A stretch of DNA of 21,998 nt from a virus: positions 1 through 21,998 of IMG/VR virus record IMGVR_UViG_3300010885_015529. One strand, given 5' to 3'. The position numbers were made by a program, and so were the translations under genes. The notes under the pieces were generated by a model. That model was not told the origin of the DNA. It was given only the letters and a program-made list of their open reading frames with translations, and searched no databases. This document shows positions 9,417 to 21,998 of the stretch, in pieces. Every line of letters starts with the position of its first letter. The first letter of the stretch is position 1.

Positions 9417-10450
9417 TGGCTGCTTCATTTGGTGAAAGTCAAAAACTAGACTATCTCTGGAAGAAACTGGGGTACGGAGTAGCCAAGACTTCTATACCTC
9501 CTCCGGGATCGGGCAGTAAAGAAGCCTTTAACGAAAGCATACCCAGTCCGTTACTGTATCGTGGCGACTTGGTTTGGACTGAAAGCGGAAGCATACCCAA
9601 CATTCCTCCGGCCAGCACCTCATCAATAGTACAAGTCTACAAAGATGGTGGCGGCAGCTACAGCCCCACAGTAGAATGTACCGAAGATCTAACAGCACCC
9701 GACAATCAAACTTGGAAAACCAATTTAACCAACTGGATACCCACCCAGTTTGGCGACAACTATTTGGTAGTGGTTTATGTAGACACTTCAGGATCTACTA
9801 CTCCACAAACCACTGGTACTAGATTGTTCCAAGCAGGCTCTGGCTCAGACGACACCTGGTTTTTTGATTATCAGGCCGGCATTTTAAACTTTAACGGCGC
9901 AACTATTCCAACGGTAATTGCTGGTGGAGTTTCAGGAAAATCTGTGTTTGTTGTGGGCTACAGATATGTAGGCACATTTGGAGTTGGTGGTGCTGCTGTA
10001 TTGGGCAACTTGACCATAAGCAATACTACAATCAGCACTAGTTTGGCCAATGCCACAATCACAATACAGCCCACAGGAACTGGGCTAGTTACTATAGACA
10101 CTGTTACTGGATTACTATTACCGGTGGGCAATACTGTTCAACGTCCTAGCCCGGCCAACACTGGAACTATTAGATTTAATACTACAACTTCTAGACTAGA
10201 AGTTTATGACGGTACTGAATGGGACCAGGTTGGACAAGGTGCTATTACCAATCAAACGCTCAACGGCGATGGGTCGACTACAACATTTACCCTGGATCGT
10301 TCAACAACCACAGCTGCCGCATTGATCATGTTAAACGGTATCACACAAATTCCTACCCAAGCATACGCAATGAGTCCTAGCCCTGGTACAAACTTGGTGT
10401 TTACACAAGCACCTGCTGTTGGCGACGTCATAGACATTAGATACCTATAA
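9416..10450 (+). CDS. Fibre-associated structural protein (344 aa)
   Basis: The N-terminus SQKLDYLWKKLGYGVAKT followed by SPLLYRGDLVW (residues about 8-55) is a conserved start of a structural protein in aquatic T4-like phages, perhaps a baseplate or fibre connector. Residues about 100-195 contain WIPTQFGDNYLVVVYVD, DDTWFFDYQAGILNF and SVFVVGYRYVG, a beta-rich domain. The C-terminal third is the shared two-part module: LLLPVGNTVQRPSPANTG and EVYDGTEW, then LNGDGSTTTFTLDRS and PAVGDVIDIRYL. It shares that module with the 132-aa protein at 5607 and the fibre at 10655. An SD AGGAGA lies at 9401-9406 and the start overlaps the previous stop (TAATG). Confidence 0.75.
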   Translation: MAASFGESQKLDYLWKKLGYGVAKTSIPPPGSGSKEAFNESIPSPLLYRGDLVWTESGSIPNIPPASTSSIVQVYKDGGGSYSPTVECTEDLTAPDNQTWKTNLTNWIPTQFGDNYLVVVYVDTSGSTTPQTTGTRLFQAGSGSDDTWFFDYQAGILNFNGATIPTVIAGGVSGKSVFVVGYRYVGTFGVGGAAVLGNLTISNTTISTSLANATITIQPTGTGLVTIDTVTGLLLPVGNTVQRPSPANTGTIRFNTTTSRLEVYDGTEWDQVGQGAITNQTLNGDGSTTTFTLDRSTTTAAALIMLNGITQIPTQAYAMSPSPGTNLVFTQAPAVGDVIDIRYL

Positions 10451-10457
10451 ACACAGG

Positions 10458-10607
10458 CTAAAACACTAGATTTTTTACAGTAGAATAAATACAATATCCA
10501 TCAATAGACCACTGCCGTCTGCTCGGTAACACGTTTGCTCTAGAGTGAATTCCTCCAAAAATTGTTTTGTAATACCCAAAATATCCAGGTCCTGGTAAAT
10601 ACATCAT
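10458..10607 (-). CDS. Possible small antisense ORF (49 aa) in the gap before the 1130-aa fibre
   Basis: The gap between two fibre genes holds, on the opposite strand, a 49-codon frame starting with two ATGs at 10607 and 10604. The peptide begins MMYLPGPGYFGYYKT, continues IFGGIHSRANVLPSRR and QWSIDGYCIYS, and ends KNLVF. Its composition is protein-like and not the V/L/P-rich pattern of the frame shadows in this window. AGG lies just upstream of the start, a weak SD. It overlaps the late promoter of the next + strand gene. It may be a small gene, a gene remnant or chance; I do not recognise a family. Confidence 0.3.
   Translation of the reverse strand: MMYLPGPGYFGYYKTIFGGIHSRANVLPSRRQWSIDGYCIYSTVKNLVF
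10485..10492 (+). promoter_or_regulatory. Late promoter octamer ATAAATAC with long leader
   Basis: ATAAATAC lies 170 bases before the ATG of the 1130-aa fibre gene, much further than the 24-30 bases found for most octamers here. A weaker TAAATAC match at 10596-10602 lies closer. Between them I see no tRNA or strong hairpin. Confidence 0.55.
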
Positions 10608-10643
10608 AGCCTGTGAAATGTCACGGCTGTTAGAATGCCAAAC

Positions 10644-10648
10644 AGGAG
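10644..10648 (+). promoter_or_regulatory. Ribosome binding site AGGAG of the 1130-aa fibre gene
   Basis: AGGAG with six bases to the ATG at 10655 supports the chosen start. Confidence 0.7.
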
Positions 10649-10654
10649 ACTAAA

Positions 10655-13600
10655 ATGGCCGTTACAAGAATTAAGAATAATCAGATCACTGATGCAACTA
10701 TTGCTGCTAATGCTAAGGTAGTACCCTATTCGGTCACATCAACCTTATTAGCCAACAACCTTACATACGGTTCAAACTTTACCGTTAGTGGAAACTTGAC
10801 TGTTAATGGAACTACCACTACAGTAGACACATTTAACACCTTGATCCAAGACCCAATCTTGGTCTTGGCTGACGGTCAAACTGCAGGTAGCCCCACAGTA
10901 GATATTGGTATTTTGGGCTATCGTGGTAGCCAAAACAGTTCATTTATTGGTTGGAAAGAAAGTGCCACAACATTCATGGCCATCTTGTCCAACACCACAA
11001 TCAGTAACACCACAGTCAACGTCTCTAGCTATGCAAATTTCACAGCCAGCACAATCACTACACAGGCCAATTTAAGTGTAATTGGCAACGTACTTGGCAA
11101 CTTAAACGCAACCAGTTATGTCAATGCTGGCAACGTCACCACTCCTGGATTGATCAGTGCCACTGGCAACATCACGGGTGGCAACATCCTAACTGGTGGA
11201 TTGATCAGTGCCACTAGCACAATTACTAGTGCTGCAAACGTCATTGGTGGTAATTTAACTACAGGCGGACAAGTAAGTGCCACTGCCAATATCACTGGTG
11301 GTAACGTGTTAACTGGCGGATTGATCAGTGCCACTGCCAATGTAACTGGTGGTAACGTCCTAACAGGCGGCCTGGTTAGTGCTACAGGAAATGTCACCGG
11401 TGGTAACGTTAATACAGCAGTAGTTCGCGGTGCAAGCGGAATAACTGTTAGTACTGGTAGTGGTAGCATTAATTTGTCACCAACTACAGGTAACATTGTA
11501 GTTAACGCTACTTACATCAATGGGGTATCAGATCCAGTACAAAATCAAGACGTTGCTACCAAAGCCTACGTTGATAATTTTGCTACAACTGGTATCGCAT
11601 ATCACACACCAGTTGCGGCAGCTACTGTAGCCAACTTGGCCACAGCCACAGGTGGTACAATTACCTACACTCAACCCAATGGTGCAGCCAACGGCGTTGG
11701 TGCATTGTTGACCACAACTGGTGCATTTAACTTGATTGACACAGCCAACGTTCAAACCGTAGGCACACGTATCTTGGTCAAGAACGAAGGTAATGCTGTA
11801 TTCAACGGTATTTACACCTGGGCCAATGCCACAAACATTGTTCGATCAACTGACACTGACACATACGGTGCAGACAGCACAACCGACTTGAGTATCAACG
11901 ATTACTTCTATACCACAGGTGGTAATGTCAACGCAGGTACAGCCTTTATTGTCAACGCACCTACAGGCACAATTACCTTTGGTACAAGCAACATTACGTT
12001 TGCCACATTTAGTACAAGTCAAGTTTATTCAGCCAACACATCAGCTGGTATCAGTTTAGCTGGCACTGTAATTAACGCCAAGATTGACGGAGTTACAACA
12101 TCCTTTGATGGTGGCGGCAATATTCAAGTTAAACCAAGTGCAAACTTAACAACACCTAACATTGGTGCTGCTACAGGTACAAGTTTAAGTGTAACTGGTG
12201 CTGTCAATGCTGGAACCACAATAAGCACTGGCGGCAACATTACTGGTGGTAATGTGTTAACAGGTGGCCTGATCAGTGCTACTGCTACTATTACAGGTGG
12301 CAACTTGGCCACTGGTGGCACAGCCAGTGCCACAGGCAACATCACAGGTGGTAATATCCTAACTGGTGGGTTGATTTCAGCTACTAGTACAGGAACATTT
12401 GGTAATATCACAGTTGGTACCAACAGTATCAACAGTGCCAACGGTAGAATCACTGTCAACAGTGGCAGTGCCGACACAGACATTGCCTTTAACGGACTAA
12501 CAGCCAACGTAATGTATATTGATGCTGGTGCCAACTCGGTCAGCTTTGGTAACTCAACACAGTATACCAATGCTTTAGCAGCTTTCAATACTAGTACCTC
12601 AATTGTGGTACCGGTTGGTAACTCTGCACAAAGACCAAGTAATGCTACCAGTACCACTGGTATGGTGCGTTTCAATAGTACCTTAAACAGTTTGGAAATT
12701 TATAACAATACTGCTTGGACCACAGTTGGTGCAACAGTGTTTACAGTTATTGCTGATCAACAGTTCAACGGCGATGGAGCAACTGTAGCATTTACATTGA
12801 GTTCTGCACAGACAACCAACAGTTGTATTGTCAGTATCAACGGTGTGGTACAGATTCCAACTATTGCTTACTCTGTAAGTTCAACAACGCTGACATTTAC
12901 AGAAGCTCCAGCTACAGGCGACGTCATTGATGTACGTCAAATTACCACAACTAGTTCAGTTATAAACATCAGTAACAGTAACGGTAACGCAGCAGTATCA
13001 GTTCTAGACACCAGTAACGTTGTTGCTGTAACAGGATCAATGAGCGTGGCTGGTTCTATAACAGCATCTAGTTTTGTTGGCCTAGACGCTACCAAGATAT
13101 CCAACGGTACAAGTCAAACAGCGGTAGTTTCTAGTGGTGGTAACATCCAAAGCAACATTGCTGGCACAACTGTAATGACTATTAGTCCTGGATTGGTAGA
13201 CATTGTGGGTAACTTGACCGTGTCTGGAAATGCTACACTCAGTGGTAACATTTTGGGTGATCGTATTCAAAACGGCACCACACAGATTGATATCCAAACA
13301 GCCAGCGGTAATGCCAACATCACAGTTGGTGGCACAAGTAACGTGGCAGTGTTTGCTACAACTGGTGCATATATCACTGGCGTAACAAGTGTTAGTGGCA
13401 ACGTAACTGGTGGTAACATCCTGACAGGTGGCTTGATCAGTGCCACTGGAAACCTTACTGTTGGTGGCGACTTAAACTTGGTTGGTAACATTGTTGACAC
13501 AGGCCCTATGTTCCTTATTACTTCAAGTAACGGCAATATTAGCTTCTTACCCAACGGTACAGGAAACATCAACACCGGTGCTAATATTATGCCAACAGCC

Positions 13601-14047
13601 AATGCCACAGCCAATATTGGTAGTTCTTCATTTACCTACAATACAATATTTGCCAAAGCAACGTCGGCACAATACGCTGACTTGGCAGAGAAATACACAG
13701 CTGACGCTGAGTATGCTCCCGGCACAGTGGTTGCGTTTGGTGGTACACATGAAGTTACACTCAGTACACAAGATGCAGATCGTCGTGTAGCAGGTGTGAT
13801 ATCTACTAATCCAAGTTACATCATGAACGGTGGACTTGAAGGTACCAACATAGCAACAGTAGCCCTGACTGGACGTGTTCCATGCCAGGTAACTGGCACA
13901 GTAGCCAAAGGTGACTTGATGGTTAGCAATGGTGATGGTACAGCTAGAGCTGAAGCAGATCCACGTGCAGGTGCAATCATTGGTAAAGCTCTTGAAGACT
14001 TTGCTGGTAGCACAGGCACAATTGAAGTGGTTATTGGTCGTTTCTAA
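10655..14047 (+). CDS. Large repeat-containing tail fibre (1130 aa)
   Basis: Residues 1-115 form an N-terminal domain with VTRIKNNQITDATIAANAKV, then IQDPILVLADG, VDIGILGYRG and FIGWKES, typical of marine phage fibres. Residues about 155-265 and 510-585 hold repeats of about 16-17 residues (type GLISATGNITGGNILTG), probably a trimeric beta-helical shaft. Between them QDVATKAYVDNF (about 297) is followed by a domain with TRILVKNEGNAVFNGIY (about 370). Residues about 650-765 are the shared QRP/NGDG module. From about 930 to the end comes a C-terminal block (AKATSAQYADLAEKY, RVAGVISTNPSYIMN, VALTGRVPCQVTG, IGKALEDF) shared with the protein at 16683. It resembles fibre C-terminal folding or autocleavage domains (distantly Peptidase_G2-like, unproven). 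A strong terminator follows the stop. Confidence 0.85.
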   Translation: MAVTRIKNNQITDATIAANAKVVPYSVTSTLLANNLTYGSNFTVSGNLTVNGTTTTVDTFNTLIQDPILVLADGQTAGSPTVDIGILGYRGSQNSSFIGWKESATTFMAILSNTTISNTTVNVSSYANFTASTITTQANLSVIGNVLGNLNATSYVNAGNVTTPGLISATGNITGGNILTGGLISATSTITSAANVIGGNLTTGGQVSATANITGGNVLTGGLISATANVTGGNVLTGGLVSATGNVTGGNVNTAVVRGASGITVSTGSGSINLSPTTGNIVVNATYINGVSDPVQNQDVATKAYVDNFATTGIAYHTPVAAATVANLATATGGTITYTQPNGAANGVGALLTTTGAFNLIDTANVQTVGTRILVKNEGNAVFNGIYTWANATNIVRSTDTDTYGADSTTDLSINDYFYTTGGNVNAGTAFIVNAPTGTITFGTSNITFATFSTSQVYSANTSAGISLAGTVINAKIDGVTTSFDGGGNIQVKPSANLTTPNIGAATGTSLSVTGAVNAGTTISTGGNITGGNVLTGGLISATATITGGNLATGGTASATGNITGGNILTGGLISATSTGTFGNITVGTNSINSANGRITVNSGSADTDIAFNGLTANVMYIDAGANSVSFGNSTQYTNALAAFNTSTSIVVPVGNSAQRPSNATSTTGMVRFNSTLNSLEIYNNTAWTTVGATVFTVIADQQFNGDGATVAFTLSSAQTTNSCIVSINGVVQIPTIAYSVSSTTLTFTEAPATGDVIDVRQITTTSSVINISNSNGNAAVSVLDTSNVVAVTGSMSVAGSITASSFVGLDATKISNGTSQTAVVSSGGNIQSNIAGTTVMTISPGLVDIVGNLTVSGNATLSGNILGDRIQNGTTQIDIQTASGNANITVGGTSNVAVFATTGAYITGVTSVSGNVTGGNILTGGLISATGNLTVGGDLNLVGNIVDTGPMFLITSSNGNISFLPNGTGNINTGANIMPTANATANIGSSSFTYNTIFAKATSAQYADLAEKYTADAEYAPGTVVAFGGTHEVTLSTQDADRRVAGVISTNPSYIMNGGLEGTNIATVALTGRVPCQVTGTVAKGDLMVSNGDGTARAEADPRAGAIIGKALEDFAGSTGTIEVVIGRF

Positions 14048-14060
14048 ACAGGCAACTGTT

Positions 14061-14093
14061 AAAAATAGGGCTCCAAGTGAGTCCTATTTTTTT
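14061..14093 (+). terminator. Intrinsic terminator after the 1130-aa fibre gene
   Basis: AAAAATAGGGCTC (14061-14073) pairs with GAGTCCTATTTTT (14079-14091) with one G-T wobble and a 5-base loop, followed by TT. It separates this transcript from the late promoter at 14096. Confidence 0.9.
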
Positions 14094-14095
14094 GA

Positions 14096-14103
14096 CTAAA
14101 TAT
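14096..14103 (+). promoter_or_regulatory. T4-type late promoter octamer CTAAATAT
   Basis: CTAAATAT lies three bases after the terminator tract and 28 bases before the ATG at 14124. The terminator-then-promoter arrangement marks a transcription unit boundary. Confidence 0.8.
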
Positions 14104-14123
14104 GTGATATTACAGGAACTACA

Positions 14124-16637
14124 ATGGGCTTAACTAAACCACGTGCCGCACAGATTTACAATTTAGATTATAAACAAGCCACACGGGTAGTCACGGTTGC
14201 CAACGTTACTTTAAGTGGCGGTGCTCCGGCATCAGTTGACGGAGTAAGTCTTAGCCTAAATGATCGCATATTAGTTACAGGTCAAGGCACTGGCAGTCAA
14301 AATGGATTATATTATGTAACCACAGTAGGTACAGGCAGTAACGGAACCTGGGCTCGAACCACAGATGGCAATGAAACTGGTGAAATTGAAGCTGGCATGA
14401 TTGTCATGGTTACCGAGGGTTCTATATATGCGGATACTCAGTGGAAACTGATCACTGACGATCCTATTACCATTGGCACAACGGCATTATCTTTTACACA
14501 AAACTATTCAGCAAATTCAATATCGGGCGGAAACAGTAACGTAGCAGTATTTTCAAACGCCAATGTAACAATCAGTTCAGCCGGCACAGCCAATGTGCTG
14601 ACAGTCAGCAACACTGGTGCTTTTGTGAGTGGCGTGGCCAGTGCAAGTGGTAATATCACAGGTGGTAATGTCCTAACTGCTGGATTGATTAGTTCTACCG
14701 GCAATATTACAGGTGGCAATATAAGTGCTACCAATTACACAGGCACTGCGGTCAGTGTCACCGGTACTGTAACTGCTGCCAGTGTAGTGGGTGGAATCAT
14801 TACAGGCACAAGTGTCAGTGTCACTGGCACTCAAACTGCCGCAAGTACAGTGGGTGGTGTAATCACTGGTAGTTCTCTCAGCGTCAGCGGGGGGATAACC
14901 AACAGCGCCACAACCGGCAACACTAACCTTGGAACCAGTACAACATCGGGACTTATCACCATGGGTGGCGTAAACCAAACTGGTGCCATTAATCTAGGTC
15001 GTAGCACAGCCAACTCGACCATTGCCATCGGCAACGGCGTTACCGCATCTGGATCAACCAAAACTATTGACATAGGAACCCTGGGTGCTGCCAACTCAAA
15101 CACCAATATCAACATTGGACCTGTGGCTGGCAATTCAACAGTGCAGTTCTTGGCCAATGCCCAAGTAGCCATAGCCAACACTAGTGGATCCGCACTCAGC
15201 GTAGCTGGCAACGTCACAGGTGGCAACATACTTACAGCAGGAGTTGTCAGCGCCACAGGCAATGTCACAGCAAATTATTTTATAGGCAACGGTGCTTGTT
15301 TGACCGGCGTAGTGACCAGCTTGGCCAACATCAACAACGGCAACAGCAATGTCACAGTCATAGCCAACAGCAACGTCACTGTGGGCATAGCTGGCACCAG
15401 CAACGTGGCTGTGTTTGCTACCACAGGAGAATACATCACAGGTGTATTGAGTGCATCGGGCAACATCATCGGTGGCAATATCTTAACTGGTGGTTTAATT
15501 AGTGCCACTTCAACAATAACAGGTGCGTCCAATATCACCGGTGGCAATATCTTAACTGGTGGTTTAATTAGTGCCACTTCAACAATAACAGGTGCGTCCA
15601 ATATCACCGGCGGCAATTTACTAACTGGTGGATTAATTAGTGCCGCAGGCAACATTACAGGTGGCAACATTATTGGTACTATTGTTGGCAACTTAACTGG
15701 TACCACTGTTAGTGCATCGGGTAATGTTACAGGCGGCAATTTACTAACTGGTGGATTGATTAGTGCAAGTGGCAACGTAACTGGTGGCAATATTTTAACT
15801 GGTGGATTAATCAGTGCCACCGGTAATGTTACTTTTGAAAATAGTGGCTCAGCTAATGCTACATATAATATTGGCACTCAATCGCAGAATAGTGGCGTTA
15901 GTAAAACTATCAATATTGGAACTCTAGGAAAAGCAGGAGCCATTACTACTATCAGTATTGGACCGTCTGGACCATCAGCCGTTGCTGGCACAACAACATT
16001 TAACTCATCGACTACAGTTGCTATAGCCAACACCGGTGGATCTGCACTTAGCGTAGCTGGTAACGTAACTGGTGGTAATTTATTGACAAGTGGATTGATT
16101 AGTGCCACAAGTACCATAACCTCAGCAGCCAATGTTACAGGCGGTAACATACTTACAGCCGGATTGATTTCTGCTACTTCTACAATCACAAGTGCCGCCA
16201 ATATTACAGGTGGCAATATCTTAACAGCCGGCATAATGAGCAGTACAGGCAATGGCATCCATGGCAACGTACTAACAGTGGGTCAAGTGAGTGCCACAGG
16301 CAATGTAACCGGCAATTTCTTCATAGGAAACGGAGCATTTTTAACCGGACTTAGTGCAGGCACCAGCAACGGTATCAGCAACGGTGCAACCAGTATCAGC
16401 ATACCTGTAGCGTCGGGCAACATTGCCATGAGCGTGGCCGGACAGTCAAACACTGTGGTTATTAACCTAGGTAGTTTGACCATGTATGGTACTTTTGCAG
16501 GACCCAGAACTTTAAGTGCCAACGTAAGTGTGGCCGATGCGGTAAACGCTGTGATTTTTGGACCGGTTACCATAGCCGATGGTTTTAATATTACTGTGCC
16601 AAATGCATCGGTTCTGTACACATATTCAGGTTCTTAA
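14124..16637 (+). CDS. Repeat-containing tail fibre (837 aa)
   Basis: Residues about 15-130 form an N-terminal domain with RVVTVANVTLSGGAP, VDGVSLSLNDRILVTGQG, NGLYYV, WARTTDGN and ITIGTTALSFTQNYS, known from many phage fibres; a relative lies inside the 1130-aa fibre. From about residue 165 the protein is made of 16-23 residue repeats around GGNILTGGLISA. A block with SKTINIGTLG, VAIANT and SALSVAGNVTGG occurs twice (from about residues 290 and 580), an internal duplication. Within the repeats is an exact 69-bp tandem DNA duplication. The last 75 residues (FAGPRTLSANVSVADAVN, GPVTIADGFNITVPNAS) are a non-repeated tip domain of a type common in aquatic phage fibres. The late octamer and the SD AGGAA precede the start. 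Confidence 0.85.
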   Translation: MGLTKPRAAQIYNLDYKQATRVVTVANVTLSGGAPASVDGVSLSLNDRILVTGQGTGSQNGLYYVTTVGTGSNGTWARTTDGNETGEIEAGMIVMVTEGSIYADTQWKLITDDPITIGTTALSFTQNYSANSISGGNSNVAVFSNANVTISSAGTANVLTVSNTGAFVSGVASASGNITGGNVLTAGLISSTGNITGGNISATNYTGTAVSVTGTVTAASVVGGIITGTSVSVTGTQTAASTVGGVITGSSLSVSGGITNSATTGNTNLGTSTTSGLITMGGVNQTGAINLGRSTANSTIAIGNGVTASGSTKTIDIGTLGAANSNTNINIGPVAGNSTVQFLANAQVAIANTSGSALSVAGNVTGGNILTAGVVSATGNVTANYFIGNGACLTGVVTSLANINNGNSNVTVIANSNVTVGIAGTSNVAVFATTGEYITGVLSASGNIIGGNILTGGLISATSTITGASNITGGNILTGGLISATSTITGASNITGGNLLTGGLISAAGNITGGNIIGTIVGNLTGTTVSASGNVTGGNLLTGGLISASGNVTGGNILTGGLISATGNVTFENSGSANATYNIGTQSQNSGVSKTINIGTLGKAGAITTISIGPSGPSAVAGTTTFNSSTTVAIANTGGSALSVAGNVTGGNLLTSGLISATSTITSAANVTGGNILTAGLISATSTITSAANITGGNILTAGIMSSTGNGIHGNVLTVGQVSATGNVTGNFFIGNGAFLTGLSAGTSNGISNGATSISIPVASGNIAMSVAGQSNTVVINLGSLTMYGTFAGPRTLSANVSVADAVNAVIFGPVTIADGFNITVPNASVLYTYSGS
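15471..15608 (+). repeat. Exact 69-bp tandem duplication within the 837-aa fibre gene
   Basis: Copy 1 is 15471-15539 and copy 2 is 15540-15608, identical base for base and 23 codons long, so the frame is kept. A third, partial and diverged unit follows (GGCGGCAAT...). Identical silent positions imply a recent event, as the other repeats of the gene differ at many third positions. Confidence 0.95.
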
Positions 16638-16652
16638 ACAAAAATAAAACAG

Positions 16653-16660
16653 CTAAATAT
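16653..16660 (+). promoter_or_regulatory. T4-type late promoter octamer CTAAATAT
   Basis: CTAAATAT is 30 bases before the ATG at 16683, in a 45-base gap without a terminator. AAGG at 16671-16674 serves as the ribosome binding site. Confidence 0.75.
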
Positions 16661-16682
16661 GAATACTTAAAAGGATTAGAAC

Positions 16683-17621
16683 ATGGCATTATCATTAGAC
16701 GGAACAACTGGCATATCATGCACTGGTAATATTGTATCTAGTGGAGGTATCATTAGTGCCACTGGTAATATCTACGGTGGTAACATCATTGGCACCATTG
16801 CTCCTAGTGCTATTACTGTTACAGGTAATGCCAATGTGGGTAATTTATTCAGCTCAGGAGTTGTTTCGAGTACCGGTAACATCACAGGTGGCAACATCTT
16901 GGGTGGTGCCAACGTCAATGCCACAACACACACAGGAACCACAGTTAGTGTAACTGCCAACATCACAGGTGGTAACTTACTCACCGGTGGATTGATTTCA
17001 GCTACCGGCAACATCACTGTTGGTGGCGACTTAAATCTAATTGGCAATCTTGTTGACACAGGGGCAATGTCTCTTATTACTAGTAGCAACGGCAACATTA
17101 CTTTGTCTCCAAATGGCACTGGTGTAGTGGTAGTCAACACAGATATACGGAACGGACAAGCCAGCGGCACAGGCAACATTGGAGCTGCTGGTGCTACATT
17201 CAATACTGTATTTGCCAAGTCCACAAGTGCGTTGTATGCTGACCTAGCAGAAAACTATGAAGCTGATGCCAATTATGAGCCCGGAACTGTGTTAGAGTTT
17301 GGCGGCGATAAAGAAGTAACACAAACAACCAGCAGCCATCGAACACAGGTGGCTGGAATTGTTTCAACCAATCCTAGCTACTTGATGAACTCTGGTATAT
17401 CCGGGGATAAAGTTGTTGCTGTGGCCCTGACTGGACGTGTTCCTTGTTATGTAGTGGGTACTATTGTCAAGGGCGATCGACTAGTTTCTAGCAATACTCT
17501 TGGTGTAGCCACAGTATTAGACATAACACAATATCAACCTGGTTGTATCATTGGCAAGGCCTTGGAAAACTACAACAGTCAAGAAATTGGCCGCATTGAA
17601 GTCGCTGTAGGTCGATTCTAA
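16683..17621 (+). CDS. Short fibre with C-terminal domain shared with the 1130-aa fibre (312 aa)
   Basis: Residues 1-115 are a short start (ALSLDGTTGISCTGNIVSSG) with four to five GGNI-type repeats. From about residue 115 the sequence runs parallel to the end of the 1130-aa fibre: TVGGDLNLIGNLVDTG, LITSSNGNI, SPNGTG, FNTVFAKSTSALYADLAENY (about 172-191), AGIVSTNPSYLMN, VALTGRVPCYVVG, IIGKALENY and a final IEVAVGRF. The bases 17424-17443 match 13862-13881 exactly. It may be an alternative tip or a shorter fibre that assembles with, or replaces, the longer one. A late promoter and an SD precede the start, and the stop overlaps the next ATG by one base. Confidence 0.8.
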   Translation: MALSLDGTTGISCTGNIVSSGGIISATGNIYGGNIIGTIAPSAITVTGNANVGNLFSSGVVSSTGNITGGNILGGANVNATTHTGTTVSVTANITGGNLLTGGLISATGNITVGGDLNLIGNLVDTGAMSLITSSNGNITLSPNGTGVVVVNTDIRNGQASGTGNIGAAGATFNTVFAKSTSALYADLAENYEADANYEPGTVLEFGGDKEVTQTTSSHRTQVAGIVSTNPSYLMNSGISGDKVVAVALTGRVPCYVVGTIVKGDRLVSSNTLGVATVLDITQYQPGCIIGKALENYNSQEIGRIEVAVGRF

Positions 17622-18708: not shown

Positions 18709-20081
18709 TTGCCTCCTGGATACAGTCCTTGATAACTCTTGACCCACGAGCTACCAGTCCATTCGTATTGTATGCTGGTTGTGATATTTGTGACATACTG
18801 TATATTATCTGGGCTACTGGTGCTGTCAAAATAAATTGTCCAGCGTGTGCCATCGTATTCGACAATGTCGTTGGCATAGGCCACCAATGGTTGTCCAGAA
18901 ACACCTTCCCAAGCTACAGCATCGCCCTCGCTCCAGCTTCCAGTGGATTCAGTCAACAAATATCTTTGTCCTACAGCGGCTGCTGGTAATCCAGCACCAG
19001 GCCCACTTAGTAATGGGTTAATAACAGCAGTAACTGGATCCAGTGTGTTGGCCGGAACTGTGTCTTGATCCACATCAAACAACAAAAATCTATCATCGGT
19101 GGGATCATAAGCAACTGTGCCCATGACTTCGGTGCCATCATCTTGTTCTAATTTAATGTAGCTTATGCCTGGCCTTAGCACACCGTACATGCCAACCACT
19201 CCTTGCCACATTAGATTACTAGGAGGACTATCTGGAGGAGTTAGGCTACTGTTTGGCTGGTCAATGACCTGCTGTTGTCTTAAGGCCTGTAGTTTGTTGC
19301 CAATTAACAGCACCTGATAACCGTATGGGGTAAACACTTGCCGTGTGCCCAGCAATAAATCATTATCTAGGATAGCATTTGACGCATCGCCTTGAGCATC
19401 AAATATCTGTGCCACGATACGTTCGACCACACCCAATTTTTTAACTTTGGCTGGACTTGAAATCCAAATTGGCATGGTAAATGTCAAGGTGGCAATGTCT
19501 ATGGGATTTTCTGTACCCACAGGTATACTTCTACTGGACCACTGTGTGCTTTCAAGTTCGCACACACTCAAACTGGTCCAGTCAAGATAGTTGTCGGTAC
19601 TTTGTATCTCTAATGCAGGATTGAACAACACCAAAATCTGTTCTAACAGTTGCATTTTTTGGTTGGTATTTGATGTCCATATGTCCAACTTCATGGTCAA
19701 CTTGTAAGGCACAGGCATTAGTCGATCAATAGTAAACGCATTGCCCTGTGTGGTTTCGTACGAGTCTGTTGCATCATCATAAGTTCTTTGACGCACAGCA
19801 ATAGTGCTGACAAAATATGGATCTTGCATTCTTTCACGAGCATAATCTAAGCCACTCACATAAAAAGTCATTAGCGGTGTTGATGGCAACTCATTGGCAC
19901 TGTTTTGTTGAATGATAGTTTGAGCCTGACGACTTGAATCGCCATAGCGTACTGGAACACGTATCAAGGTGTGCTCAGTGCCCTCTTCGTTGCGACCATA
20001 CTCTACTTGAAAGTTACTAAAAATTCTAGCAAACTGCAACATAAAGCGACGTATTTGTTCATCATAAAAAAATTGTGCCAT
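18690..20081 (-). CDS. gp15: Tail sheath stabiliser and completion protein, gp15-like (463 aa)
   Basis: The N-terminus FFYDEQIRRFMLQFARIFSN then FQVEY, TLIRVPVRYGDSSRQ (residues about 4-52) corresponds to T4 gp15 (YFYNSSFRRY...LFSNIQI...FIRVPITYAS). Residues about 125-155 (YKLTMKLDIWTSNTNQKMQ, LLEQILVLFNPALEI) match the gp15 block around IFTRYEDDMFQIVEQILPYF. In T4, gp15 caps the tail tube and sheath and joins the tail to the neck. The protein is 463 residues against 272 in T4. The extra C-terminal half (from about residue 280) is a beta-rich extension with AVGQRYLLTES, VEYDGTRWTIYFDS and a final GGKWSLVL, as seen in marine relatives. The start overlaps the stop of the gp14-like gene by one base (TAATG), with AGGA upstream. 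Confidence 0.85.
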   Translation of the reverse strand: MAQFFYDEQIRRFMLQFARIFSNFQVEYGRNEEGTEHTLIRVPVRYGDSSRQAQTIIQQNSANELPSTPLMTFYVSGLDYARERMQDPYFVSTIAVRQRTYDDATDSYETTQGNAFTIDRLMPVPYKLTMKLDIWTSNTNQKMQLLEQILVLFNPALEIQSTDNYLDWTSLSVCELESTQWSSRSIPVGTENPIDIATLTFTMPIWISSPAKVKKLGVVERIVAQIFDAQGDASNAILDNDLLLGTRQVFTPYGYQVLLIGNKLQALRQQQVIDQPNSSLTPPDSPPSNLMWQGVVGMYGVLRPGISYIKLEQDDGTEVMGTVAYDPTDDRFLLFDVDQDTVPANTLDPVTAVINPLLSGPGAGLPAAAVGQRYLLTESTGSWSEGDAVAWEGVSGQPLVAYANDIVEYDGTRWTIYFDSTSSPDNIQYVTNITTSIQYEWTGSSWVKSYQGLYPGGKWSLVL

Positions 20082-21469
20082 TATCGTCCTGGAGGTCTTG
20101 GGTTAGGAGGTAAGTTACCGCCAGCATCACCGTTGTCGGCTTGTGGTTTAAGTATTTCACTCAAGCTCTGACGGCTAGGTATATTACCCAGGTCAGTGGT
20201 AGCAACTGTGTATGTATTGTTAACAAAGCTGGCTCGTTGTGTAAGTGCTGGGGTAGCCAAGTCAAGATCAGTTCTGACATTGTCTTCAATCTTGATCCAT
20301 CTTGCACCATCATAACGGAACAAGCGATTAGGGAAATAATCCAATCTCAAAGCATAGTCTCCGGCCACAGCATTTTGTGGAAAGCTCACACCAGGGGTTA
20401 CAGGCAAACCATTGGGCGGAATCAAATAACCAGTTCCAGGATCAACACCGCCGGTCAAGTAGCCCATGGTGTAACCAAAACTCTTGGGAGTGATACCTTC
20501 GCCGGTTTCGGTGCCGTCTACTGTGGGATGTGTATCGTCGGCTGTGTATCCTGCGGCAGCTGGTTGACCTTCTGGTGTGGTTGGCAGTATATAAAATTTA
20601 ACTGTGTCATACCCACTCAGTGGAACCTCGGCATAGGCCTGTGTAAGTATAGCGTCATTGATCTCCAAGTCCTTGGGACGAGTACTCATCTGATCGCCTA
20701 CTGTGGTAGGATTTGGTATCAAAGTCCAATAAGGTTGTCCAGTGCCAGGATTAACAGCATCAATTGGAGTGCCAGCTGGAACATTGCCATTGGCTTGATA
20801 ATACGTATTACCATCATTAACTACAGTGCCGTTGGGATAAAAATTGCCCGGATCCCAAATGTTCTCTGGCATAAATGGTTGATTGATAATTTGCTGGTAC
20901 TCTTGAGCATTGACCAACGGAGTGGCCTTGACACGCCATACGTGCGGCAACCAAGTTTGACTAAAACCTTCGCTGGAGTAATTGCCGTCTTGTATTACAT
21001 AATATCTAGGCAAGGCGTTAGGAATACTTTTGTCCAGCGGATGGTAATCTTTCAAGTTAGGAACTTCAATCACATCGCCAACCATGAGCTTACGACCAAA
21101 CGTGTCAATCATGTTGTTGTAGTGAAAAGAAATAAACAAGGTATCGTTGTTTAAAAACAATCCAAACTGTGTCAAATCAAAATCTACGTCTTGTGTACGA
21201 TACACACCTCGCATGATGTATACATCTGGATCATAAGCACGATCACGGTTTTCCAACAATAGCAAATCTTCAATGAACAAGGGATTTGAACTACCGTAAA
21301 CTGGTAAGGTTGCATCCTGATCACCTAGATCACCAGTTTGCGGCCCCAGGTACTTGTGTATGTAAATGTCCAGCCCGCCCACAGTGAACATTTCTTTAAT
21401 GGTTTTGTCAAAGAACTGGTAGTCGTTGGTTCTATTAGGGCGGTAAAGGCTTAAACGTGGCATAGTCAT
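20081..21469 (-). CDS. gp14: Neck protein, gp14-like (462 aa)
   Basis: Residues about 60-185 form the recognised core: FIEDLLLLENRDRAYDPDVY, IMRGVYRTQDVDFDLTQFG, LFLNNDTLFISFHYNNMID, GRKLMVGDVIEVP, PRYYVIQDG and FSQTWLPHVWRVK. T4 gp14 has the same order of features (FGEDLKNKF, SKFGMQ..DEVTLSI, PKEGDLIYFP) and is a neck protein between portal and tail. It is much longer than T4 gp14 (256 residues). Residues about 205-250 (NFYPNGTVVNDGNTYYQAN, GQPYWTL) look like a small carbohydrate-binding-type beta module, and the end is Pro/Gly-rich (GGNLPPNPRPPGR). Immediate coupling to a gp15-like gene supports the call, because gp14 and gp15 are adjacent in T4. ATG at 21469 is preceded directly by a late octamer; ATG at 21463 is an alternative. 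Confidence 0.7.
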   Translation of the reverse strand: MTMPRLSLYRPNRTNDYQFFDKTIKEMFTVGGLDIYIHKYLGPQTGDLGDQDATLPVYGSSNPLFIEDLLLLENRDRAYDPDVYIMRGVYRTQDVDFDLTQFGLFLNNDTLFISFHYNNMIDTFGRKLMVGDVIEVPNLKDYHPLDKSIPNALPRYYVIQDGNYSSEGFSQTWLPHVWRVKATPLVNAQEYQQIINQPFMPENIWDPGNFYPNGTVVNDGNTYYQANGNVPAGTPIDAVNPGTGQPYWTLIPNPTTVGDQMSTRPKDLEINDAILTQAYAEVPLSGYDTVKFYILPTTPEGQPAAAGYTADDTHPTVDGTETGEGITPKSFGYTMGYLTGGVDPGTGYLIPPNGLPVTPGVSFPQNAVAGDYALRLDYFPNRLFRYDGARWIKIEDNVRTDLDLATPALTQRASFVNNTYTVATTDLGNIPSRQSLSEILKPQADNGDAGGNLPPNPRPPGR

Positions 21470-21477
21470 GTATTTAT
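21470..21477 (-). promoter_or_regulatory. Late promoter octamer ATAAATAC on the - strand
   Basis: Read on the - strand, ATAAATAC ends directly before the ATG of the gp14-like gene, so the transcript would start close to the second ATG (21463). It is the only good late octamer before the leftward operon gp14-gp15-Nudix. Confidence 0.6.
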
Positions 21478-21485
21478 GGGTTAGA

Positions 21486-21514
21486 TTGACTTAAAAATCA
21501 AAACATCATATAAT
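21486..21514 (+). promoter_or_regulatory. Near-consensus sigma70 promoter (TTGACT-17-TATAAT)
   Basis: TTGACT at 21486-21491, 17 bases of spacer and TATAAT at 21509-21514. The expected start, seven bases after the -10 box, is 21521, exactly the ATG of the next gene. It would be served by the host RNA polymerase and is typical of early expression. Confidence 0.85.
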
Positions 21515-21520
21515 TACAAA

Positions 21521-21772
21521 ATGGACGAACTATTTCAACGCTTAGATCAAGCAGAAAAAGCTATTGCCGCTGTTAAAAACAAAGTAGCCCGTAAAGATTT
21601 GCTAAAAATGGTCAAAGGTGTAGATCAAGCCATTGTGGCCGCGGATATGGAAAGTGTGGAATGCCGTAGAATGCGTCGAGAAACAAGCCGTTATCAAGAA
21701 TTGGTCCAAACGGTAAAAGATAGACTTACAAATTTAGAACAACACATAACCTTTGCTAACCTGCTTGGTTGA
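21521..21772 (+). CDS. Small coiled-coil protein (83 aa), unknown function
   Basis: The protein is highly charged and helical throughout (ELFQRLDQAEKAIAAVKNK, RRETSRYQELVQTVKDR, LTNLEQHI), with heptad-like spacing of Leu/Ile/Val. I do not recognise a family. There is no Shine-Dalgarno sequence before the ATG, and the promoter just upstream predicts a transcript without a leader. The gene stands apart from the structural genes in promoter type and is divergent from the gp14-like gene, 51 bases away. Small coiled-coil proteins of early phage regions often bind host or replication proteins, but nothing here shows that. Confidence 0.7.
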   Translation: MDELFQRLDQAEKAIAAVKNKVARKDLLKMVKGVDQAIVAADMESVECRRMRRETSRYQELVQTVKDRLTNLEQHITFANLLG

Positions 21773-21797
21773 CCTTACTCAAACTTTCATATACAAT
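21769..21797 (+). promoter_or_regulatory. Second sigma70 promoter (TTGACC-17-TACAAT)
   Basis: TTGACC at 21769-21774 overlaps the stop codon of the preceding gene; the -10 box TACAAT is at 21792-21797 with 17 bases between. The predicted start, about 21804, is one base before the ATG at 21805. Confidence 0.75.
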
Positions 21798-21804
21798 AAA
21801 CACT

Positions 21805-21998
21805 ATGGCTAAATCAAACGAAATCAAAAGACTAAACCCCAAGGGTGCTGAAACCAAATATGTAGGCTTCGAACCCGAGTGGAAATTTCAACCAGACGAA
21901 ACCAATCGCATCAGCAAACTGGCCAATGCGTTTCAATGGTACAACTATCACTATGGTAAAAAAGATGCCAAAGAAATGTTGTGCCATTATTTAGAACA
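21805..21998 (+). CDS. Hypothetical protein, 3' end outside window
   Basis: The frame from ATG at 21805 is open to the end of the window (64 codons). It begins MAKSNEIKRLNPKGAET and continues KYVGFEPEWKF and NAFQWYNYHYGKKDAKEML. The WYNYHYGKKDAKE segment looks like a conserved aquatic-phage protein, but I cannot name its function. Like its neighbour it has no visible SD and a sigma70 promoter whose start coincides with the ATG. Confidence 0.7.
   Translation, partial: MAKSNEIKRLNPKGAETKYVGFEPEWKFQPDETNRISKLANAFQWYNYHYGKKDAKEMLCHYLE

Follow-up and report, generated by a model that had tools for sequence, protein, structure and literature searches.

Two promoters and three genes at the end of the window

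The stretch of DNA analyzed here (the window) is a 22-kb virus record from IMG/VR (21,998 nucleotides). Its capsid protein is of the gp23 type (phrog_138, E = 5e-97), with 61-65% identity to those of the jumbo phages PA5oct, Vibrio phage 2.275, and GAP32. A tail-sheath-type protein is also present, and there were virion-protein matches in PA5oct, Atu_ph07, and Vibrio 2.275. Relatives of the window's proteins are encoded in hundreds of IMG/VR stretches. A 7-kb query found no relative at the DNA level in the phage collection, and our searches brought up no cultured phage of this lineage. By its sequences, the lineage appears to be one of very large freshwater T4-type (jumbo) phages, which would be widespread. 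T4-type traits seen in it include the gp23-type capsid and a gp55-like sigma factor (a weak match, E about 2e-5 to 4e-5, in six related contigs) together with TATAAATA late promoters. A search with bS21 gave a weak hint of the host, pointing to Burkholderiales or other Proteobacteria at 55-58% identity. Elsewhere in the window, two long fibre-like ORFs (10655 to 16637) carry many repeats of type SATGNITGGNILTGGLI, and a similar repeat occurs at 16683 to 17621.

Three genes meet at the end of the window. Gene 1 (21521 to 21772, plus strand) encodes 83 amino acids with a conserved N-terminus, has no SD sequence, and its product is predicted to be a three-helix protein (AlphaFold pLDDT 91). Gene 2 (21805 to 21998, plus strand) is the 5′ part of a gene for a protein of about 381 amino acids (phrog_11903) and runs off the window. 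A structure search for functions of genes 1 and 2 gave no significant match. A virion structural gene (phrog_11591; 20081 to 21463, minus strand), also without an SD sequence, diverges from gene 1.

The original prediction placed the promoters TTGACT-17-TATAAT and TTGACC-17-TACAAT just before the ATGs of two genes that lack SD sequences, and both observations were borne out. The first promoter, P1, consists of a −35 box TTGACT (21486 to 21491) and a −10 box TATAAT (21509 to 21514) on the plus strand, separated by 17 nt. The 6 nt TACAAA lie between the −10 box and the ATG at 21521. The second, P2, is on the same strand. Its −35 box TTGACC (21769 to 21774) overlaps the TGA stop codon of gene 1 (21770 to 21772), its −10 box TACAAT (21792 to 21797) follows a 17-nt spacer, and 7 nt separate that box from the ATG at 21805. 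P1 matches 11 and P2 10 of the 12 consensus positions, and P1 was the best sigma70 site in the 10 kb scanned. No SD match of at least 4 nt precedes the ATG of gene 1 or gene 2, and gene 1 has no in-frame alternative start upstream of its ATG.

Sigma70 promoters initiate transcription some 7 nt downstream of the −10 box. Because of this spacing, we infer a +1 on the A of the gene 1 ATG (21521, plus strand) and another on, or one base before, the A of the gene 2 ATG (21804 to 21805, plus strand), which would leave a leader of zero or one base. It is highly probable that P1 and P2 are early-type promoters used by host sigma70, with transcripts that start at or one base before the A of AUG, and that both mRNAs are leaderless. 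We call them early because of the kind of promoter and because other leaderless genes (see below) act in replication and repair; the timing itself is inferred. In this mechanism, host RNA polymerase would begin at this distance from the −10 box and produce an RNA beginning 5′-AUG. A 70S ribosome with initiator tRNA would then bind the 5′-terminal AUG without SD pairing, presumably by the known leaderless pathway.

Conservation of the promoter-to-start distance

We compared the upstream regions of about 100 distinct relatives, reaching down to about 41-50% protein identity. For gene 1, a promoter matching at least 10 of 12 positions was present in all 98 loci with one found, and five loci had none in reach. 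The spacer measured 17 nt in 97 of the 98. The ATG followed the −10 box by 6-7 nt in 97 loci and by 8 nt in the remaining one, and three loci also had an extra in-frame ATG at a gap of 1. Once near-identical sequences were removed, the −35 and −10 boxes were the most conserved elements. TTGAC of P1 was invariant in this deduplicated set, and the information content reached 2.0 bits per position for TTGAC of the −35 box and 1.95/1.62 bits for the −10 box, as compared to 0.93/0.43 for the spacer.

Gene 2 occurred in two states. In 88 of 99 loci it was leaderless by geometry, with a gap of 6, 7, or (in a few) 9 nt and no SD sequence. The other 11, L025 among them, had a gap of 23-26 nt, all with an AGGAG-type SD, and no locus among the 99 had a gap of 10-22 nt. 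One additional locus outside this set (L191) had been paired with the wrong −10 box, at a gap of 0. Gene 2 thus interconverts between a leaderless and a leadered arrangement. Several of the leaderless gene 2 loci had N-termini longer by 1-7 codons, and they still placed an in-frame ATG 6-9 nt after the −10 box. Since the N-terminus varies while the ATG keeps its distance to the −10 box, the start codon tracks the promoter and not the N-terminus of the protein.

These alignments bear on whether the two promoters could be chance matches to the consensus. False sites are common in a simple scan (32 in 10 kb where 21 were expected), but both boxes and the gap were kept in about 100 divergent loci, and related genomes have an excess of leaderless starts (see below), so that coincidence is hardly credible. 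The repeated geometry had been called unlikely to be chance when it was first noticed, and the rate at internal ATGs agrees, at about 0.55 per 773 candidate starts in one related genome. We regard the conservation as stronger evidence than this estimate.

Two promoter-to-start distances across related genomes

We surveyed three related contigs (G001, G002, and G003; 344, 337, and 317 kb) alongside five comparison phages: T4, PA5oct, GAP32 (320 kb read), Atu_ph07 (400 kb read), and Vibrio 2.275. Genes were called with a home-made greedy longest-ORF rule. For each genome we computed the distance from a strong sigma70 promoter to a candidate ATG start, with the expectation taken from internal ATGs. 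The original prediction had proposed a search of other early genes for an ATG 6-8 bases after the −10 box, and in these relatives the excess fell at 5-7 nt. There were 15, 9, and 14 genes in this range against 0.55, 0.32, and 0.58 expected (Poisson P = 6e-17, 7e-11, and 3e-15; the three genomes have orthologs in common, so the tests are not independent, and with the simple gene calling these P values are guides). A second, leadered peak at 26-35 nt comprised 24, 19, and 18 genes. The leaderless peak was absent from the comparison phages, with counts at 5-7 nt of 2 in PA5oct, 1 in T4, 2 in GAP32, 1 in Atu_ph07, and 0 in Vibrio 2.275.

The two groups of genes also differed in their translation signals. 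Across the three genomes, an SD of at least 5 nt preceded none of the 41 leaderless starts versus 43 of the 75 leadered ones (Fisher P = 1e-11, subject to the same caution). AUG was the start codon in 38 of the 41 leaderless genes, and both window genes begin with ATG. Nine ortholog groups were leaderless in all three genomes, some via weaker matches: the primase, the phrog_11279 protein, the exonuclease, and one unknown had a 9/12 promoter in at least one genome, and a UV-endonuclease-like protein (our reading of its sequence) had a gap of 8 in G003. Gene 1 is among the nine, as are genes for a DNA primase, an exonuclease, a phosphoribosyltransferase, and unknown proteins. Each phage appears to have about a dozen or more leaderless genes, and by sequence the lineage has two discrete modes, the leaderless one and a second in which about 26-35 nt separate the −10 box from the start codon, mostly with an SD.

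Since the reading frame alone was used to call start codons, the ATGs might be false, with the true starts downstream behind ordinary leaders. We consider this very improbable. The proteins of genes 1 and 2 keep their N-termini in relatives. For the phrog_11279 protein, the relatives in the isolated phages Atu_ph07, PA5oct, and GAP32 begin at the identical residue, though behind SD-like sequences, in support of this protein's start codon.

The initial transcribed bases suggest how the two modes are related. Of 60 leadered promoters, 40 had AU at the predicted +1 and +2, followed by A in 29 of the 40 and by G in only 3, while for leaderless promoters the definition itself places AUG at the predicted 5′ end. 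Early promoters thus seem to favor AU at +1 and +2. A G at +3 would create a leaderless start, and an A would give the non-start AUA that is typical of leadered promoters and precedes their leader. Because AU is shared, both modes would be one promoter type that differs at +3 and in the following leader, and a leaderless start could arise by a single base change.

The same bias allows another reading: longer read-through transcripts would be the main templates for translating the genes, and an ATG at +1 would be a by-product of a promoter preference for initial AU. If AU is common at this position, one further base makes AUG. Between gene 1 and gene 2 lie 32 nt in which no terminator is listed, and gene 2 may also be read from P1 on a leadered transcript. 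We find this unlikely as the general explanation, as leadered promoters seldom have G at +3 and the gap stays while N-termini change. Neither gene would have an SD on a longer transcript, and the gene 2 loci with a gap of 23-26 nt do all have one. Leaderless translation of both genes, as first predicted for the window, remains our preferred reading, and the comparison supports it strongly through the fixed gap, the missing SD sequences, the promoter-tracking start, and the clade-wide mode. The geometry, its conservation, the missing SDs, the two modes, and the two states of gene 2 can be read directly in the sequences.

It would be a more elaborate proposal, and a doubtful one, that the two modes form a genome-wide code switched at +3 and joined to remodeling of the host ribosome (e.g. 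by the phages' own bS21), with each mode favored at a different time. We rejected bS21 itself as the cause of the leaderless mode: it is encoded not only by all three genomes but also by PA5oct, Atu_ph07, and Vibrio 2.275, where this mode is absent. A phage initiator tRNA was also rejected, since G002 has the leaderless mode with no tRNA genes detected. An initiator-like tRNA-Met (C1 and A72; our sequence reading) is present in G001, PA5oct, and Atu_ph07. We also discarded the idea that the promoter spacers share an AATTC motif, which only a few sites have. As side observations, the bS21 gene lies directly behind a ClpX-like reading frame (also our sequence reading) in G001, G002, and G003, and G001 (locus L219) has an array of 26 tRNA genes at 10354 to 17602, with the initiator-like tRNA-Met at 11282 to 11355.

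Late promoters, known systems, and other viruses

The divergent virion gene has a T4-type late promoter box, CATAAATA, at 21471 to 21478 on the minus strand. Its true start is most likely the second ATG (21463; MPRLSL...), which is conserved and lies 7 nt after the box. The first ATG of the ORF (21469) lies upstream of the predicted late transcription start and is not conserved. From the second-ATG start, the virion gene is itself most likely leaderless or has a leader of 1-2 nt. Among 92 relatives with a TAAATA box, 89 had it 5-7 nt from the start without an SD, and 3 had it at 20 nt with one. In the virion genes of L018, L174, and L020, a leader with TAGGAG replaces the leaderless ATG and ATT stands where the ATG was, possibly as an AUU start.

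The same proximity occurred genome-wide. A NATAAATA box stood 4-8 nt ahead of a candidate ATG 32 times in the three lineage genomes (134 sites) and 5 times in the five comparison phages (431 sites). T4 late promoters lie about one helical turn before the transcription start (PMC2988020), and at that spacing the lineage's close late boxes would give leaderless or nearly leaderless mRNAs. Late promoters thus also appear to have a leaderless and a leadered mode. Leaderless early genes had at first been set against SD-led structural genes. The other structural genes of the window are indeed mostly SD-led, but that contrast was too simple: among the lineage's sigma70 (early) promoters with an assignable gene, the majority are followed by a leader, generally one that carries an SD, and late promoters include leaderless ones.

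On leaderless mRNAs, 70S ribosomes can bind at the 5′-terminal AUG (PMC4965119, PMC9031893). Among phages, such mRNAs have been known chiefly for single repressor genes and for one Thermus phage. Transcripts of lambda cI and of PY54 cI and cro were mapped to begin with AUG (PMC4488713). Those are single regulatory genes of temperate phages, while the lineage's predicted cases comprise many conserved replication, repair, and structural genes. Another likeness is to phiYS40 of Thermus thermophilus, which has many leaderless middle and late transcripts and reported changes in IF2 and IF3 (PMC3594737). Both would have many leaderless genes and not one repressor gene, although phiYS40 differs in that the lineage is T4-type, with sigma70 and T4-late promoters and SD-led genes as well. 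In the parts of one study we drew on, Thermus hosts belong to a group rich in leaderless genes, and the leaderless genes of Actinobacteria and Deinococcus-Thermus, which are bacterial and not viral, have a −10-like signal at leaderless distance and no SD; those parts contained no description of two-mode use with a +3 switch (PMC3160421). AR9 was ruled out as a precedent by its 5′ UTRs of 26-491 nt (PMC5312081).

T4 resembles the lineage in its sigma70-type and TATAAATA promoters and its gp55-like sigma factor, but it has only the leadered mode. The related T4-type jumbo phages PA5oct, GAP32, Atu_ph07, and Vibrio 2.275 also have no leaderless excess, apart from one probable case, the PA5oct primase. 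We found no report of genome-wide leaderless use in a T4-type phage in the literature searched, which mostly excluded subscription journals. Leaderless phage mRNAs as such are already known. P1 and P2 are most likely true leaderless promoters and exemplify a two-mode initiation system in this T4-type lineage. The lineage seems to keep two routes of translation start at its early promoters and at its late ones, and a single gene can switch naturally between the two. It therefore allows direct comparisons that address what makes a virus retain leaderless genes and how the two modes share ribosomes. Gene callers that rely on SD sequences may misplace starts in such phages.

Similar spacing was found beyond the lineage. 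Among the IMG/VR matches listed, a consensus promoter followed by an ATG opened a plausible gene in 71 of 130 cases at a gap of 6 versus 27 of 120 at a gap of 12. In contigs fetched for the 12-nt pattern, the other sites also peaked at a gap of 6, with 12 as compared to about 1 at gaps of 9-16. With this peak in other environmental viral contigs, the feature may be common and overlooked. Leaderless-type spacing was also seen in viral contigs, such as L428, L403, and L446, that blastn did not match to the lineage genomes. The PA5oct primase (NC_071039.1, 145878 to 145892) has a sigma70 promoter matching all 12 of 12 positions with an in-frame GTG at 145890, 6 nt downstream of TATAAT. Its annotated start, at 145884, comes immediately after the −10 box, and it is likely a single leaderless case in that phage.
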